Below, piece after piece: positions 11,691-20,156 of a stretch of DNA of 64,000 nt. Position numbers and translations under genes: made by a program. The stretch is from positions 10,903,983 to 10,967,982 of the forward strand of contig NC_087077.1 of assembly GCF_026151205.1 (NCBI RefSeq), read 5' to 3'. The DNA is from Bolinopsis microptera. Taxonomy: Eukaryota > Ctenophora > Tentaculata > Lobata > Bolinopsidae. The notes beneath the pieces are model-generated. The model ran no database searches, had not been told where the DNA came from, and saw only the letters and a list, made by a program, of their open reading frames with translations. Every line of letters starts with the position of its first letter. The first letter of the stretch is position 1.

Positions 11691-12670
11691 TAATAGGCTA
11701 GTGTAAACATATATAATCATTAATACAAACAAATGGTATTAGTAACTCGCTAGATTATAGATGTTATTTAAACACATATGTTTACGTCAATTATTACTAA
11801 AATTAATATTCTTTTTGCTTTAATATAATTACATGTCACATAATGGATTAGTTGAATGAAACGTGTGCTACATGACAAATGTCTACGCCTCACGCAAAAC
11901 TGCGTACCGCTTAGTACTTCATGCTTGAGCGGTACTGCGGTTGACAGTGGCGCGCACTCAATTTAATCACAAATAACGAGCGCGCGGTTTTTTGGAATCT
12001 CTCCATTATTATATTAATTAGGTCGCAGTGTTCACGGCCTGTACTGCGTGAACGACAGAAATATCTTTTAAATTATTTTGCTTCTGAAATTTTGGCTCTA
12101 GAAATTAAGAAATGTGACATGTAATTGTAAGATATGTATTGACATGTATTGTAAGATAACAATTAAATAGATCATGTGCGCGGCGCCTACAGCTGACCTA
12201 CGAATTTCTGAACAATTTTAAATTGTGGCTGTGTGCGCGGCGTACTGTATATTATGTGTTTGAAATTGAAATTTGAATTTATTTATGAATATAACATTAT
12301 GTATTGATTGTTTTGTGGTAAATAAAAATTTTTCTTTCAAAAAAATTTTCTTTCAAAAGTGGCCAATAGTGCTTCGTGCTACAAGTCCCGCGCCCGCGCC
12401 AAATTGCTATGCAATCCGTTGTGCGTCAACAATGTTTTAATAATCTAAAAATGAAAAAGGTGAAGCAAACATGATCAAATTATTCAATTTACAATTGAAT
12501 TAGAAAGTTAAATTTTGGCTGAGCGCCGCCCAGTAATTACTCCCACAAGTGACAGATCAAGAACAGTTGTTTTGTGTTTTGAAAAAGAACAACAGCTTCT
12601 TCTGTCAAAATCGAAACCAAAGTTTAATATAAATATAATTTTGTACACCACACCAATTTAAGTACTTAAA
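11691..12670. other. Non-coding stretch with GC-rich islands
   Basis: No gene seen. GCGC-rich patches near 11890-11990 and 12175-12240 contrast with the AT-rich surroundings and resemble decayed MITE sequence. A doubled TTTTTCTTTCAAAA unit sits at about 12325-12358. Confidence 0.4.
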
Positions 12671-12785
12671 ACAGTGATTTCTCTGCGTAGCGGGGAGACA
12701 GAGGTGCGAGAAGGAACTTTGTTAATATAAATACTTTAGATATTAACTTGGAGCCACAAGGCCAAGAAAAGGGTGATTTTTATAT
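12671..12785 (+). repeat. Direct repeat of the retroelement 3' end, upstream copy
   Basis: Matches 18834-18931: ACAGTGATTTCTCT, GGAGACAGAGGTGCGAGAA, TTGTTAATATAAA and ACTTGGAGCCACAAGGCCAA occur in the same order in both, with a few substitutions and small indels. In the downstream copy this is the last coding sequence plus the start of the 3' UTR. The upstream copy has lost the coding frame. Confidence 0.85.
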
Positions 12786-13020
12786 GGTTTTCCAATATTT
12801 GAGATAAGGGATATATTACGTTGGGTTTTTTGAATATAATACATGGTTTTTTTGCTTGAGCTGTAAAATCCTCTGGTGTTGAGACTACTCCATCAGATCC
12901 CAAATTTGGGTCCACTACTGTTAAGGAGACTCGTATCCAGTAGGGGCTGACAGCGGTAAGCTTCAGTGTCTGCTGGTAACCGACTCGGCAACAGTAGTGG
13001 TTCCCATTTTTTGGGTTGGA

Positions 13021-15001
13021 ATGCCTGACACAAGAAAAATGGACACTAGGTCCAAAGTAGGAAAGCAAACTGGAAAGAAAGCTGATATCTGTGGATTTTG
13101 TTCAAAGGAGGTAATATGTGATTGTATTCAATGTGAAGGAAAATGTGGACGATGGTTCCATGCGGCATGTAGTGGACTGTCGGAGTTGCAGTTTAAAGAC
13201 CTAGCAGAAAATGAGGATTCTGAGTGGTCATGTCAAAGATGTGGCAAGGAGGAGAAGAGCAGCGAAGACGAAGACGAAAACCCCATAACTGAAGCTATCC
13301 GAAAGTTGGGGAGACAGGTCGAAGAAAGTGTACAACCATCTACTCCAATATCAAAGGACCCTCATATTGTGGAAGAAGAGGGAAAGGAGTGCTGTTTCCC
13401 AGGTTATGAAAATGTAAGGGATCCATCTCAATTGAAATTAGGATCATGGAATAGTTGGGAAGTTCTAACACAATGTGAGGGAATATATGGTGTTGTAGTC
13501 AAATGGAGAATAAACATATTTCTGCTTCCCTCAGGGGCTGCAGGAAAAGCATTCATCGAGGAAATGACTTAAGTGGCCAACAATTTTTCAGCAGGCAGTA
13601 CTATGGAATCAGTGACCATGACCCTTTTGATGATAATGCCATCACTACTGTTGCAGAAACCCTCAAAGAGATCCAAAGCAAAGGAACACACTGAAGTGTT
13701 GAAGAGAAGGCTTGTTTTGTGGCAGGCAGGTAAGTTAGAAGAGTTGCTGCGAGAAGGACAGGAGATTCAGAGAAGAATGGGAAAAGGGAAACATGAACAT
13801 GGCCATGTTGAGAGAGTCTTCACTCGACTTATGATGAAAGGTAAAGTCAGTGCAGCAATGAGGTGGATTGGCGAAAATGCCACCGGGATTCTTGAACCCA
13901 CTCCAGATGTGATAAAAGTACTGAAAGAGAAGCATCCCAAGGCATCACCTGCATCAAAGGGAAGCTGTCTGAGTGGACCAGTGAGGAGAGTAGAGCCGGT
14001 TATCTTTGACAGTATTGACGGGGAATCGATAAGACAAGCAGCAAAGAGAGTACAGGGTGCTGCAGGGCCTTCAGGAATGGATGCGGATGCGTGGAAGAGA
14101 CTACTGTGTTCTAAACAGTTTGGTAAGAAGTGTGAGGATCTATGCAATGCTATAGCAGGGATAGCAAGGAAACTATGTGTCAGGAATCTGGATCCAACGA
14201 TGTTGACCTCATTGACAGCATGTCGACTTGTTCCCCTGGATAAAAGCCTGGCGTCAGGCCTGTTGGCATTGGTGAAGTCTTACGAAGGATAATAGGGAAG
14301 ACAGTGATGACCCTCCTACAGAAGGATCTGGTTGGTGCCACTGCTCCTATTCAAGTGTGTGCTGGTCTTCAGGGAGGAGTGGAAGCAGCTGTTCATGCTG
14401 CGAGGGACTGCTTTGAAGATCCTGAAACTGAAGCCATCATCTTAGTGGATGCAGAGAATGCATTCAACTTGCTGAACCGAGAGGCAGCTCTTAACAACAT
14501 GTATATTGTATGTCCAGAAGTTGCTACCTACATTATGAACACCTACAGAATGCCTGCTAGACTGTTTATTGCAGGAGAAGATGAACATCTTTTTAGTGAA
14601 GAAGGGACAACACAAGGTGATCCACCTGCTATGGGATTTTATGCATGTGGTACAATACCATTGATTGATGCAGGGAACATTGAGAGAAAAGTGACTCAGA
14701 TCTGGTATGCTGATGACTCTGCTGCTGGGGGAAAACTGGAAGAAATGAGGAAATGGTGGATAACCTCTGCATTAAAGGACCACTTTTTGGTTACAACCCT
14801 AAATCTTCCAAGACATGGGTGATAGTCAAGCCTGAGCACGAAGAGAAGGCAAGAAACTTGTTCCCAGATGTCAATGTGACAAGTATTGGTCGACGATATC
14901 TGGGCAGCTTTATCGGAACTGATGAAGGAAAAGGGGCTTTCATCGAGGAAAAAGTTCAAGAATGGTGTCGTGATCTTAAACAATTAAGTGATATAGCATC
15001 A
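13021..15001 (+). pseudogene. Retroelement ORF, 5' part: PHD finger and reverse transcriptase core
   Basis: ATG 13021 begins a basic leader followed by a PHD finger (CGFCSKEV ... CEGKCGRWFHAACSG ... SEWSCQRC, C4HC3 spacing) at about 13093-13242, then an acidic linker. The same frame meets TAA at 13570 and continues with MIMPSLLLQKPSKRSKAKEH, a region preceding the RT domain in this lineage. A missing base near 14244 shifts into the frame holding motif A (LVDAENAFNLLNR, near 14445-14485), motif B (GTTQGDPPAMGF, near 14605) and motif C (WYADDSAAGG, near 14703-14732). Another missing base near 14759 shifts into the frame that reaches IGRRYLGSFIG and LSDIAS, where the nested element begins. No endonuclease domain is recognisable. 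Confidence 0.85.
14988..15001 (+). repeat. Target-site duplication, left copy (nested Penelope-like element)
   Basis: GTGATATAGCATCA, identical to 17689-17702. Confidence 0.9.
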
Positions 15002-17428
15002 CCCGGGGCTGTGTGTGTACTTGGAAAAGGGTTGGGCTTTGTACCTACACCCTCTCTTGATGTTGAAGGAACAAGATTGGACATGCGTTTAACAACGAAC
15101 AGGATCCTTCAGTCTTCAAATCAGTCACTTAACAGCAATGACCAGTTTGAAACCCCGAACCTGCCCCAAATACCACCAAAACTCTATCAAAAATCATACT
15201 ATTCATCACAGTCATCAGATGACAGTAGTGTTAATGATATTGTGAAGAGTATGGAGGCGGACCTTGACCAGAGATTGACCATTCAGAAAACTACAAGAGG
15301 CGACACAAAGAAGAACTTGTCAAAGGAAGAGACTGAGGGCCTAAAATGGCTTGAGTGCATGAACAATGAGGGAAAACTATCCGTTGTTCAAGCTGATAAA
15401 GGAGGTGCAGTGATCATTATCAACCCAGAGACACTAAGGAAGAAGACACTTGAGAAGCTCCAAAACCCGAATATCTATACTGAACTGAAGGAAGATCTCA
15501 CCCAAACATTACACCATGAGTTATTCCTCAAATGGGTTGAAGGTAAAGAGAAAGGTTTTATCCATCCGATGACTGCAAAAAGTGTCATGGGTGTTTCTGA
15601 TAATGATAGCACAAAAGAGGGGAAAGATAAGACCAATGCAAAGAGCACTTCTTCATATTTCAAGCCAGGAAAAGCCTACTTTTACCCGAGTTTGAAGATC
15701 CACAAATTGAAGAGAAAAGACCTTGTGCCAGGCATAGAGCCCCCTGTGAGACTAGTCACTGCACTACAGGAAGGAATAGCAAAAAGGAGTGATGTCTTCT
15801 TGGCCAGTGAGTACTTCAAAAATCTTGAAAAGGACTATTGCGAAGACTTACTGACTGACTCAACGGAGGCACTGAGATGGCTTGAAGTATGCAATGAAGT
15901 TGAAACAGACAAACGAGCCCTCCGAGCTTTCACTTTCGACTTCAAAGCTCTCTACGACTCATTAAACCCTGAACTTGTCAAGGAAGCCGTTCATCATGCA
16001 ATGAATACCACCAGACCAGACTGGACACCAGCACTCTGTGATTGGCTGGTCGACCTCGTTGATATCAGTCTAAGATCCTCTATTGGATGCTTCGAAGACA
16101 AGTGGTACGTCCAAAAGAACGGAGTGCCTACAGGTGGAAGTCTGTGTGTGCAGTTGGCCAACATAACTGTATTTTATGTAATGAACAAATGCGTTTACAG
16201 TAACACTGACATGATGAAGAGAGTCAGGACTGTAAGACGGTACATTGACGATGGTGCAGGTTTCTTCTACAGCACTGAAAGGAAATTTGACCAGTGGATT
16301 TCCGATGTAAACAAATCCTTGAAAGAATATGGGCTACTCATTGACGAATCCCAATGGAAGGAAGTTGGCACGCCTGTGGCTTTTCTAGATATCGAGTTTT
16401 GTTTCGACCCTGAGGGAAACTTACAAACTGACCTCCATATCAAGGAAACAGATTCAAGGAGCTATCTACATTTTAGCAGTGCACATCCAAACCACATCTA
16501 TAGTGGAATAGTTTACAGCCAGTGTATCAGACTCAGGAGAATAATCAACTCACAAGAACGACTGGAAACCAGATTGAGTGAATTAAGCCAAGCATTCAAG
16601 GCAGCTGCTTATCCCTCAAAAATGGTGAACAACATTAGCAAAAAAGTTCTCAACTCAGAAAGAAACCTTGAACGAAGACCTCCCAAGGACAACACACTGA
16701 AGCCAGAGATCCTACCAATAAGGGTTGTCTCAACCTACGGAAGTGACTCTGACATTGTCACCACAGTGAAAAAGTATGAGGAGAACTTAAAGAAGACCAG
16801 AAGTTTTTGTAACCTGAGTGACTCAAAACAACAGAGTAACACCCTTGAAGAAAAGAAGAATGGCAAAAAGTTCTTCCAATTTGTCAAGAAAACAGGAAGC
16901 AACCTCAAAAGCCGGTTGGTTAAGGTGAAAGAAATAGCTCTGGGGAATAAGCATGGTCAAACAAGGCCGTGTAGAAAGAAGAACTGTGCAACGTGTGAGT
17001 CTATTGATAGTGCTACACAAATCAGCATCAATGGGAAACGGGTAAAACCAGCACCAGGTACATGCATCACTTACAACATCATATATTTGATCAGATGTAA
17101 ACTGTGTGAGAAACCATACGTAGGCAAATCCACCAGAATGCTACGGGTAAGGTTTGGCGAACACAGAAGAGCATTCTACAAGATCATCAGTGGGCAAAAG
17201 GTTGACACGGATGATGACTCAAACTGCGTAGGACTCCACCTCCATATAGAGCATGGACTGACTCAGAAGGAAAATTTTAACAATAGTGTTTCAGTGTGTA
17301 TCCTAGAAAATTCAAGTCCTAGTAGTTTAGATGTTAAGGAGCACCGATATATACATGCCTTAAATTCCCTCCGCCCCTCAGGAATGAATAGTACAAACCC
17401 TTTTAAGATTCCTTTATTGCATAATTGA
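15002..17428 (+). CDS. Penelope-like reverse transcriptase with GIY-YIG endonuclease
   Basis: The frame is open from the insertion point to TGA at 17426-17428, about 808 codons, with no damage. It begins with the Penelope N-terminal signature LGKGLGFVPTP; the first internal ATG is at 15083. RT motifs: QADKGGAVIII (about 15392), YFYPSLKIHKLKRKD (about 15680), motif A FDFKALYDSL (about 15938), motif B GVPTGGSLCVQLANI (about 16120) and the catalytic RRYIDDGAGF (about 16235-16264). A CCHC-like cysteine motif (RPCRKKNCATCES, near 16970) precedes the GIY-YIG endonuclease: IIYLIRCKLCEKPYVGKSTR with downstream RVRFGEHRR (about 17080-17166). Penelope-like elements reverse-transcribe their RNA at a nicked target (family knowledge). 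With no native start or 5' UTR, autonomous expression is doubtful. Confidence 0.95.
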   Translation, partial: PGAVCVLGKGLGFVPTPSLDVEGTRLDMRLTTNRILQSSNQSLNSNDQFETPNLPQIPPKLYQKSYYSSQSSDDSSVNDIVKSMEADLDQRLTIQKTTRGDTKKNLSKEETEGLKWLECMNNEGKLSVVQADKGGAVIIINPETLRKKTLEKLQNPNIYTELKEDLTQTLHHELFLKWVEGKEKGFIHPMTAKSVMGVSDNDSTKEGKDKTNAKSTSSYFKPGKAYFYPSLKIHKLKRKDLVPGIEPPVRLVTALQEGIAKRSDVFLASEYFKNLEKDYCEDLLTDSTEALRWLEVCNEVETDKRALRAFTFDFKALYDSLNPELVKEAVHHAMNTTRPDWTPALCDWLVDLVDISLRSSIGCFEDKWYVQKNGVPTGGSLCVQLANITVFYVMNKCVYSNTDMMKRVRTVRRYIDDGAGFFYSTERKFDQWISDVNKSLKEYGLLIDESQWKEVGTPVAFLDIEFCFDPEGNLQTDLHIKETDSRSYLHFSSAHPNHIYSGIVYSQCIRLRRIINSQERLETRLSELSQAFKAAAYPSKMVNNISKKVLNSERNLERRPPKDNTLKPEILPIRVVSTYGSDSDIVTTVKKYEENLKKTRSFCNLSDSKQQSNTLEEKKNGKKFFQFVKKTGSNLKSRLVKVKEIALGNKHGQTRPCRKKNCATCESIDSATQISINGKRVKPAPGTCITYNIIYLIRCKLCEKPYVGKSTRMLRVRFGEHRRAFYKIISGQKVDTDDDSNCVGLHLHIEHGLTQKENFNNSVSVCILENSSPSSLDVKEHRYIHALNSLRPSGMNSTNPFKIPLLHN

Positions 17429-17688
17429 TTTTTATTTTGCCTGAGGGGCTTTCCATAAATTATTTTTTTAAATAATTGGTCCTTTTATTGATGTTTCATA
17501 TTTCACGGCAGTTTCCTTTTCAGAGTTTGAGTTTATATTTAGAAACTAACCATACTATCTTTTAGATTTATGTCACTTATGATGGCTCCGGCTGAAAGTA
17601 CTATGACTCATTTTATCTAGAAGATTGTAGTTTCATTGCTTCTGAAGTAGCTATCAGTTCGCCGGTCAATGTTGGGTATAATACTCTT
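17429..17688 (+). other. 3' UTR of the Penelope-like element
   Basis: Non-coding tail of the nested element. CCTGAGGGGC just after the stop is complementary to GCCCCTCAGG in the last codons (about 17373-17382), so the RNA could form a short stem here. No poly(A) tail, as expected for this class. Confidence 0.7.
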
Positions 17689-17702
17689 GTGATATAGCAT
17701 CA
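17689..17702 (+). repeat. Target-site duplication, right copy (nested Penelope-like element)
   Basis: GTGATATAGCATCA, identical to 14988-15001. The host ORF resumes in frame at 17703. Confidence 0.9.
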
Positions 17703-18887
17703 AGAGAACCTCAAATAGCATACAGTGCATACATGTATGGGCTTAGTAAAAGATGGAACTATGTGTGCAGAACTACCCCAGGAGTTGCAGATAGGCTCAC
17801 TCCTCTGGAACAAGTAACACGCGATGAGTTTATCCCAGCTATCATCAACAGGCTGTTTAGCTGCACTGATGAACTAAGGAACATAATGGCTCTACCACCA
17901 AGATATGGAGGATTGGGTATACCAGTTATGATGGACATGGCAGACCGAGAGTACAAATTCTCATGTAGAGCCACAAAACCCCTTAAAGAAGCTATTCTCA
18001 AGCAGGTAGACAACTACACAGAGGACTGGAGAGTAAGCAAAGGAGTGAAAACTGAGATAACAACTGAAAGAAATCTCTTCTATCGACAAAAACAAGCGGA
18101 AATACGCCAGGAGCTCGAGTCAACACCACTGGCAAAGTTGATGTTCCAACTAGCTGCTGAGAAAGGGGCAAGTGCTTGGTTAACAGCACTACCTTTAAAA
18201 GAGTACGGATATCTGATGAACAAACAACAGTTCTCAGACGCATTAGCTCTCAGGTACAACCTGAACTTAAAGGACAGCCCTAAGACATGTACGTGTGGCC
18301 AAAAGTTCTCAGCAAACCATGCGCTTATCTGCAAACTCGGTGGATATGTGTCACTGCGGAACAACTCGCTGAGAGACACCTTTGCTGAACTAATGAGAAC
18401 TGTGAAATGCAAGGATGTGCAGACTGAGCCAGTTCTTCTTCCAGTTGATGGTCTGAAGTTGCCTAAGGGAACAGTACTTGGAGACCAAGCTAGGCTGGAC
18501 ATTTCTGCAAGATCGATTTGGAATGCTTCAGAGAGGGCATATTTTGATGTAAGGGTATTTCATGCCCCAGCCCCCTCCAATGCAAGCAAATCGATCCCAG
18601 CAATGTACCAGTCCCATGAAAATGAGAAAAAGCGATGTTACAACGCAAGGGTTCTTGAAGTGGAGAAAGGAAGCTTCACACCTTTAGTGTTCTCGACTTC
18701 TGGTGGAATGGGTAGTGAAGCTGAAAGACTGGTAAAAAAGCTGGCCAGTAAGATGGAGTACCACACTGGCCAGAGGTACTCGGATGCTGTAGGTTACATC
18801 AGAAAGCGCCTTCTCTTTGAAATCCTAAGAACAACAGTGATTTCTCTCCGTGGAGACAGAGGTGCGAGAAAAACATTGTTAATATAA
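17703..18887 (+). pseudogene. Retroelement ORF, 3' part (C-terminal half)
   Basis: Continues the PHD/RT element after the nested insertion: REPQIAYSAYMYGLSKRWNY, then LEQVTRDEFIPAI and LPPRYGGLGIPVM, as expected downstream of the RT core. Near residue 190 of this segment, CTCGQKFSANHALICKLGG gives a CxC...H...C pattern that may bind zinc; the motif is common near the C terminus of such elements. A conserved TVISLRGDRG end precedes the stop TAA at 18885-18887. This segment has no internal stop. ATG 17733 is only an internal methionine. Confidence 0.85.
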
Positions 18888-18931
18888 ACAGTCTAGATCT
18901 TAACTTGGAGCCACAAGGCCAAGGGTAATTT
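18834..18931 (+). repeat. Direct repeat of the retroelement 3' end, downstream copy
   Basis: Pairs with 12671-12785. Contains the last 17 codons, the stop and the first ~45 bases of 3' UTR. Confidence 0.85.
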
Positions 18932-19522
18932 TTGAGTGCTTAGGGAATTTTGTATATTCTTAAAGGTTTGATTTTATATAGGGTCATTGCTATATTAAGT
19001 GTATATTGTTTGAATAATTTTTTATTTAAAAAATATATTGAGTTTTTGAGGATGTCTATCCTTATAGTAGCTAGGCAATTACCATTGCTGAAATTATCTG
19101 TATACTGTTCGAAACATTTTCAAACAATTTAAGTTAAAATTGAATATTGAAACTCAGGGTTGAAAAGTAGTAGTGCAGTAAAAATAGCAGAATTAAATAT
19201 AAATTTGGAGCCAGTTCTTTAAACTGGCTTACTTATACTACTAAAAGGGTGTTTATAATTTTTATTTAGTTTTCTATTGAATTTATATTGAATTTTTATA
19301 TAGGGTAATTGTTATATTATGTGTATATTGTTTGAATAATTTTTGTATTGAAACTCAGTCGTTACAAGTTTGGTTTGAAACATAAAGGTTGACAGTTGAG
19401 AGTAAAACTTCCACAAACTTGTTGTTGACTGTATTTCTATCAATTTGGACACTGCCGCTCAGCTCAGGTAGCACGAATAAAATTCCTCTGATTGATGACA
19501 AAATATGACACTTTCGATCCTC
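18932..19522 (+). repeat. AT-rich 3' tail with a ~320-bp internal duplication
   Basis: TTATATAGGGT, ATTGTATATTGTTTGAATAA-like sequence and GAAACTCAG recur at about 18970-19150 and 19292-19360. This is probably the duplicated 3' UTR of the PHD/RT element. No gene. Confidence 0.5.
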
Positions 19523-19530
19523 CCTTAAAC

Positions 19531-19818
19531 CAGTGGCGTAACGTTGCCTGTTGGCGCCCCCCTGCCGAAAAAAGCGCCCCCCTGTTGGCGCCCCTCCCCT
19601 TTTGGTGCCCCTCCCTAAAATTGAACCAATTAGGTGATTTTAGAGAATACGCCGGTAAAATCTCTAAAAACGTGTGTATCTAGAGCAAAACGCGCAGTTT
19701 TGCTAGTACTTTAGTTAAGTTTTCGAAATTGTCCCACATTCAAACGACGATTTGGCGCCCCCCTAAGACGGCGCCCCCCTCCACAGCGGGGTCAGCAGGG
19801 CCTTTCGTTACGCCACTG
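19531..19818 (+). mobile_element. hAT-type MITE, copy 1
   Basis: 288 bp with 13-bp terminal inverted repeats CAGTGGCGTAACG and its complement, flanked by an exact 8-bp duplication CCTTAAAC (19523-19530 and 19819-19826). The 8-bp duplication and CAGTGGCG ends fit the hAT superfamily. The interior has GGCGCCCCCC-rich blocks near both ends and no coding frame. Confidence 0.93.
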
Positions 19819-19869
19819 CCTTAAACAGTCCCTTCTGTAAAATCAATCCATTGAAAGACCCGACAGATC

Positions 19870-20156
19870 CAGTGGCGTAACGAAAGGCCCTGCTGACCCC
19901 GCTGAGCAGGGGGGCGCCGTCTTAGGGGGGCGCCAAATCGTCGTTTGAATGTGGGACAATTTCGAAAACTTAACTAAAGTACTAGCAAAACTGCGCGTTT
20001 TGCTCTAGATACACACTTTTTTAAAGATTTTACCGGCGTATTCTCTAAAATCACCTAATTTGTTCAATTTTAGGGAGGGGCACCAAAAGGGGAGGGGCGC
20101 CAACAGGGGGCGCTTTTTTCGGCAGGGGGGCGCCAACAGGCAACGTTACGCCACTG
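19870..20156 (-). mobile_element. hAT-type MITE, copy 2, inverted
   Basis: 287 bp, reverse complement of copy 1 with few differences, flanked by its own 8-bp duplication GACAGATC (19862-19869 and 20157-20164). Only about 50 bp separate it from copy 1, so the pair forms a near-perfect ~288-bp inverted repeat. Confidence 0.93.

Follow-up and report, generated by a model that had tools for sequence, protein, structure and literature searches.

Penelope-like elements (PLEs) that carry a GIY-YIG endonuclease, such as Penelope/Poseidon and Neptune, encode a reverse transcriptase (RT) followed by the endonuclease in one open reading frame (ORF), form partial tandem units with pseudo-long terminal repeats (pseudo-LTRs), and show 5′ truncation, short duplications and AT-rich targets. 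PMC3846280 describes Pen2_Av of Adineta vaga as a PLE insertion within a non-LTR retrotransposon, with a target known from a related uninterrupted copy. PMC11167929 reports that Poseidon of Anolis carolinensis, termed there the first active PLE, starts reverse transcription inside the RNA in vitro. Here, we analysed a stretch of 64,000 nucleotides of the genome of the ctenophore Bolinopsis microptera (assembly GCF_026151205.1, contig NC_087077.1, positions 10,903,983 to 10,967,982 of the forward strand; hereafter the window, numbered from its first letter), in which a PLE lies inside a retroelement with a PHD finger and an RT domain (hereafter the host). The inserted family shares with the GIY-YIG PLEs the single RT and GIY-YIG ORF, the pseudo-LTRs of partial tandem units, the target-site duplication with AT-rich targets and the 5′ truncation. 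The locus resembles Pen2_Av in its nesting within an element that is probably of the non-LTR type, in the knowledge of the target from an empty copy and in microhomology at the 5′ junction. In contrast, the Pen2_Av case, as given in PMC3846280, lacks a duplication, whereas up to 14 bp are duplicated here, and duplications of 8, 9 and 10 bp are given there for A. vaga compared with mostly 11–13 bp in this family. Nested insertion of a PLE is not unusual and has been documented before; the proof is unusually clean at this locus because dozens of near-identical empty sites are present in the same genome. The locus provides a datable junction, and it gives access to a young PLE family, the 3′ ends of which are relevant to the initiation of PLE reverse transcription.

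Insertion into a resident retroelement

An earlier note, made from the sequence of the window, had described the PLE as lying between two exact copies of a 14-bp sequence. We observed that GTGATATAGCATCA is exact on both sides of the insert (Table 1) and occurs nowhere else in the window at up to two mismatches. Removal of the insert and one copy of the repeat was said to join the host frame, and the uninterrupted host copy L075 indeed translates ...LSDIASREPQIAYSAYMYG... across this point. A 42-base pattern across the insertion point was searched in the whole genome (264.65 Mb, 232 contigs), allowing up to three mismatches, and 56 places were found. Of these, 55 are uninterrupted (45 of them exact), and the remaining one is the right flank of the window itself, which matches the joined flanks with two mismatches. 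A second copy with the same insert would be expected to show the same two mismatches; none was seen among the places found, and the insert is absent from this point at all 55 other places, so that the check proposed in the earlier note spoke for an insertion. Consistently, a 599-base probe of the joined flanks gave unbroken alignments with 10 of the 11 further host copies that were fetched, at identities of 99.3–99.8%; in host copy L014 the match starts 120 bases before the point and continues past it, and a separate insertion is present farther to the left.

Because the joined flanks occur uninterrupted at 55 places, the segment is an insertion with a target-site duplication and not a component of the host family, and it is younger than the host copy that it interrupts. 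The nesting that had been read from the window is supported both by these empty sites and by the PLE family's own ends. The position of the insertion also stood, but not 14 bp as the exact length of the duplication: since the last two bases of the left copy (CA) and up to five bases of the right copy (GTGAT) are element sequence as well, 14 bp is an upper limit and the true length is 7–14 bp. Taken as a whole, we hold it as nearly certain that a 5′-truncated, endonuclease-bearing PLE copy inserted into a resident PHD/RT retroelement, probably of the non-LTR type and probably already damaged.

Table 1. Coordinates of the two elements, their domains, the duplication and the damage of the host copy in the window (UTR, untranslated region)
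Feature	Position	Strand	Remarks
Left part of host (PHD finger, first part of RT)	12847..15001	+	5′ limit approximate; similarity to most fetched host copies begins at about 12847
PHD finger of host, Pygopus-like	13090..13242	+	Pfam PHD E=2e-4, below curated cut-off
In-frame stop private to the window host copy	13570..13572	+	0/13 other fetched copies covering the site; 0/10 in another count
1-bp deletion (frameshift), private	14243..14244	+	Approximate; 0/15 other fetched host copies covering the site
Host RT motifs (VDAENAFN ... QGDPPAMG ... YADD)	14253..14720	+	Pfam RVT_1 E=0.003, below cut-off
1-bp deletion (frameshift), private	14759..14760	+	Approximate; 0/16 other fetched host copies covering the site
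Target-site duplication, left copy	14988..15001	+	Last two bases CA match the element too
Inserted PLE	15002..17688	+	5′-truncated at unit position ~631 of ~3,323
Remaining open frame of PLE ORF	15002..17428	+	808 codons; start region of the family missing
RT domain of insert (YIDDGAG)	15893..16387	+	Pfam RVT_1 E=2e-6, just below cut-off
Cysteine cluster between RT and endonuclease	16970..17107	+	C657, C662, C665, C688, C699, C702 invariant in 5/5 aligned sequences
GIY-YIG endonuclease core of insert	17075..17170	+	Pfam GIY-YIG E=0.005, below cut-off
3′ UTR / pseudo-LTR part of insert	17429..17688	+	Ends ATAATACTCTT; same end in the 40 copies used, at most 3 edits
Target-site duplication, right copy	17689..17702	+	First five bases, GTGAT, also begin the next element unit
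Right part of host (rest of protein, 3′ tail)	17703..19021	+	3′ limit approximate

Relative age of the two elements

The host copy was compared with 18 fetched copies of a family for which the genome search had shown 55 other places. Several of the 18 are partial; 17 were usable on the left side and 18 on the right. L077 lacked a usable left part, and the longest left piece was used for each copy (two such pieces were present in L014, L080 and L082). In the window, the host is split over several open frames. The stop and both frameshifts that had been noted in it are present, and none of them recurs in any other fetched copy that extends over the site. Further indels were found, namely a third 1-bp deletion at about 18,870, near the host stop codon, and a 1-bp insertion at about 13,007, which precedes the first likely ATG. 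The full frame of 1,089 codons is kept in three of 11 host copies. In total, nine substitutions and four indels in 3,465 bp are private to the window host, whereas the insert, compared with 11 copies of its family, has one private substitution and no indel in 2,687 bp. A binomial test for equal age gave p = 0.004 with all changes and 0.03 with substitutions alone. The relative order that had been proposed for the two elements is therefore backed by the private mutations as well as by the empty sites. Because 13 private changes are found in the host and one in the insert, most of the damage of the host probably preceded the arrival of the PLE, as the earlier note had considered possible; this is likely, although it is not proven.

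Two considerations tell against this order of events. The three host copies that retain the whole frame also carry four to six private substitutions each, so that the nominal p value overstates the case, and the test counts changes in the source lineage together with decay. The alternative is that the PLE entered an intact host copy, which acquired the stop and the frameshifts later. Besides the substitutions of the whole-frame copies, it is favored by the indels taken alone, since four private ones in the host and none in the insert indicate the order only weakly (0.563^4, or about 0.10, from the lengths), but the excess of private changes in the host (p = 0.004) makes it rather unlikely.

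The Penelope-like family and its junctions

The PLE copy of the window lacks the 5′ region of the unit and about 210 N-terminal codons, and its remaining frame is open. The insert ORF had been called undamaged, which is correct in that it is open, but it is not whole, since copies L002–L007 reach further 5′: by 80 nt in L002, 111 nt in L006, 494 nt in L007, and the full ~630 nt in L003, L004 and L005. In these last three copies, a unit of ~3,323 nt is preceded by part of another unit, as in a pseudo-LTR layout; L008 has the same layout with an internal deletion of ~94 nt. The frame of the unit comprises 1,021 codons in L004 and L005 and is broken in L003, and its first in-frame ATG is at unit position 33. 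The eleven other fetched PLE copies have DNA identities to the insert of 95.9–99.7% in their main pieces, with a common 3′ point and varying 5′ ends. A protein search of the genome with the insert returned 59 matches, of which 25 reach an identity of at least 95% (with pieces of one copy counted separately in some cases) and the others mostly 47–61%. In L074, two PLE 3′ ends of like orientation are separated by ~765 nt and may represent a short tandem with an internal deletion.

The window protein and four divergent relatives (48–56% identical) could be aligned over their whole length. In this alignment YVG, R717 and E780 are invariant, which we take to be the catalytic residues of the GIY-YIG domain, and the RT of the insert contains the motifs LGKGLGFVPTP and YIDDGAG, presumably typical of PLEs. 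The GIY-YIG domain was detected at the same place in four of the five sequences (E of 0.004–0.03 in three of the four relatives), all below the curated cut-off; RVT_1 was above the cut-off in one of the four relatives and was not listed in the other three. Six cysteines between the RT and the endonuclease are invariant in the five sequences, matching a cluster that PMC3846280 gives as a feature of the Neptune group.

To describe the junctions of the family, we used 40 PLE copies. A search of the genome with the 3′ end, in which 40 of 102 candidates were scored, listed 40 matches, and 35 of these were used together with L002, L010, L012, L070/L071 and L072/L073. Left out were L039 (whose 5′ end is beyond the fetched stretch), L066/L067 (whose 5′ stretch is all element), a rearranged copy at C8:12361530 and two upstream pseudo-LTR matches of L005 and L008; a broken copy at C1:21604930-21607346 is among others outside the sample. 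All 40 copies end, within 3 edits, in the sequence given for the insert in Table 1. A repeat of at least 10 bp flanks 27 of the 40, compared with three of 1,560 control pairs in which the 5′ flank of one copy was combined with the 3′ flank of another, and a repeat of at least 12 bp was observed in 20 of the 40 and in none of the control pairs. In the 27 copies the repeats are of 10–14 bp, most often 12. The first base after the 3′ end is G in 27 copies, A in 12 and T in one, the second is T in 32, and the A+T content of the 20 nt after the first flank base is 76%, compared with 62% in the window. The target sequence that had been expected from the window was only partly obtained: a single target tells little, and the 40 copies show only an AT-rich preference that begins with purine-T. 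Regarding the flanks themselves (at most 400 bases per side were read, often far less), only two copies have flanks that match the host family by DNA, that of the window and L040, which lies in a 3′ tail; a third, L043, has one flank with a protein match to a related element. The positions differ, and the PLE is probably not aiming at this host family.

Among the 27 copies whose repeat measures at least 10 bp, 13 have a repeat that begins 1–5 bases past the element end. In 11 of these, the additional bases read G, GT or GTG, as at the start of the next unit, and are absent from the target; the other two are L047, where the base is T, and L053, which is microsatellite-like. In the window, the target itself starts with GTGAT, like the next unit. 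Since 11 of the 27 copies show bases of the next unit that are not in the target, these junctions suggest that reverse transcription may start internally on a PLE RNA of several units, an idea to which we assign somewhat less than an even chance. Partial annealing of the target to the template may also contribute, and untemplated addition of G may be an alternative source of the extra bases. If internal initiation is correct, the observation made in vitro with the anole PLE would extend to another PLE lineage. Both systems would share AT-rich cleavage and a start inside the RNA, deduced here from the junctions; in PMC11167929, however, the common start of the anole Poseidon is 111–118 nt inside the ORF, whereas the copies described here end ~32 nt before the first in-frame ATG.

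From these results, we infer a probable course of target-primed reverse transcription by a GIY-YIG PLE that ended early. The PLE protein, encoded by the same family or supplied in trans, would have cleaved an AT-rich target that starts with purine-T; copying of the PLE RNA into DNA would have begun at the fixed 3′ boundary (...ATAATACTCTT) and halted early, at unit position ~631; the 5′ end would have been joined at the 2-base microhomology CA, and repair of the staggered cut would have produced the duplication of 7–14 bp. Within this course, the insertion, the empty site, the truncation, the fixed 3′ end and the duplication are shown, and target priming, the use of multi-unit RNA and the source of the enzyme are inferred. 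Some results weigh against the assignment and the course proposed: 13 of the 40 copies lack a repeat of at least 10 bp, the Pfam scores of the RT and GIY-YIG domains of the insert are below the curated cut-offs, and the insert protein had no match among PDB sequences up to E=1. Recombination or template switching between two elements could also have placed a PLE fragment in the host, the 14-bp repeat being then a product of chance or repair. The CA microhomology at the 5′ junction and the extra bases between duplication and element in some PLE copies would fit such an event, but the 3′ end is the standard end of the family and up to 14 bases of the target are found on both sides, in line with the repeats of at least 10 bases at 27 of the 40 copies, and we consider this origin very improbable. 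Least credible of all, to the point of being negligible, is that the PLE segment is a normal part of a composite retroelement with internal short repeats: an open frame of 903 codons (14717-17428) does continue without a break from the host frame to that of the PLE, but joining in frame is expected in one third of insertions, PLE copies elsewhere have their own flanks and duplications, and the uninterrupted places throughout the genome (55 of 56) led us to reject this reading of the frame.

The PLE was also inspected for ribozymes. Rfam found no ribozyme and no match up to E=1 in positions 12400-19500 of the window, no ribozyme in L003–L005 (only chance-level matches to miRNA, snoRNA and lncRNA), and no match in eight 3′-side stretches taken from divergent PLE copies. 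The exact hammerhead core pattern was not found in the PLE unit. In the 3′ UTR, at 17576-17597 (unit position ~3211), one core resembles a hammerhead apart from a single mismatch (CTTATGA, 11 bases, GAAA); it has no Rfam support, and a ribozyme in this PLE is not claimed. A pattern search of the same eight stretches showed one hammerhead pattern that looks canonical, in L095, and one near pattern, which is present in L094, L099 and L100. Minimal hammerheads can escape Rfam. A hammerhead ribozyme in the pseudo-LTR is common in PLEs, although not universal (PMC11167929); here it was found neither by Rfam nor as an exact core pattern in the unit.

The PHD/RT host and neighboring repeats

The host resembles long interspersed nuclear elements (LINEs) in its single long ORF with a putative RT, in its 5′-truncated copies and, as judged by eye, in its variable A/T-rich tails and flanking repeats. 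It differs from them in the N-terminal Pygopus-like PHD finger and in a C-terminal block, CxCG...H...C followed by D...DVRV, which is conserved among seven sequences. The Pygopus PHD in PDB was matched by an uninterrupted host copy with E=3e-7, and with 1e-7 by profile. The RT gave weak RVT_1 matches in the piece from the window, in L075 (E=0.06) and in the relative L083 (8e-5), all below the cut-off. The C-terminal block may resemble that of LINEs with a restriction-like endonuclease; PDB searches with it, both as a single sequence and as a profile, matched no solved structure, and a single-sequence fold of the host piece from the window, inspected for such an endonuclease, was dropped (mean pLDDT of 34). 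A literature search whose reach mostly excluded subscription journals returned no paper on a non-LTR retrotransposon with both a PHD finger and a restriction-like endonuclease.

No LTRs of the host were seen from the limits of the fetched copies. A direct repeat (12670-12766 and 18833-18923) was considered as a candidate and rejected, since its left part is outside the element by the limits of other copies; this part is a relic 3′ tail of another host-family copy. Such relic tails are found just upstream of the host (12670-12766, 86% over 97 nt) and just downstream of it (19293-19343, 96% over 51 nt). In a similar way, host copy L020/L031 follows the 3′ part of another copy, and its own 3′ flank resembles that tail by eye.

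The flanking repeats of dispersed host copies were judged by eye. Among copies L014–L024 with L025–L035, many carry tens of copy-specific bases between the flanking repeat and the common body CTTGAGCTGTAAAATCC. The last part of this 5′ stretch is common to L022 and L023, as if host 5′ ends were added or captured. The insertion of L014 (with L025, on C9) is of ~370 bp, with a 7-bp overlap of its flanks, and its point is different from that of the insert in the window. In L035/L024 (C4, ~7331000), the host 5′ flank appears by eye to encode part of the GIY-YIG domain of another PLE, and nesting may go both ways. Finally, an inverted repeat is located at 19558-20130, with arms of 261 nt that are 95% complementary, separated by 51 nt and near CAGTGGCGTAACG-like ends; it is possibly a miniature DNA transposon.

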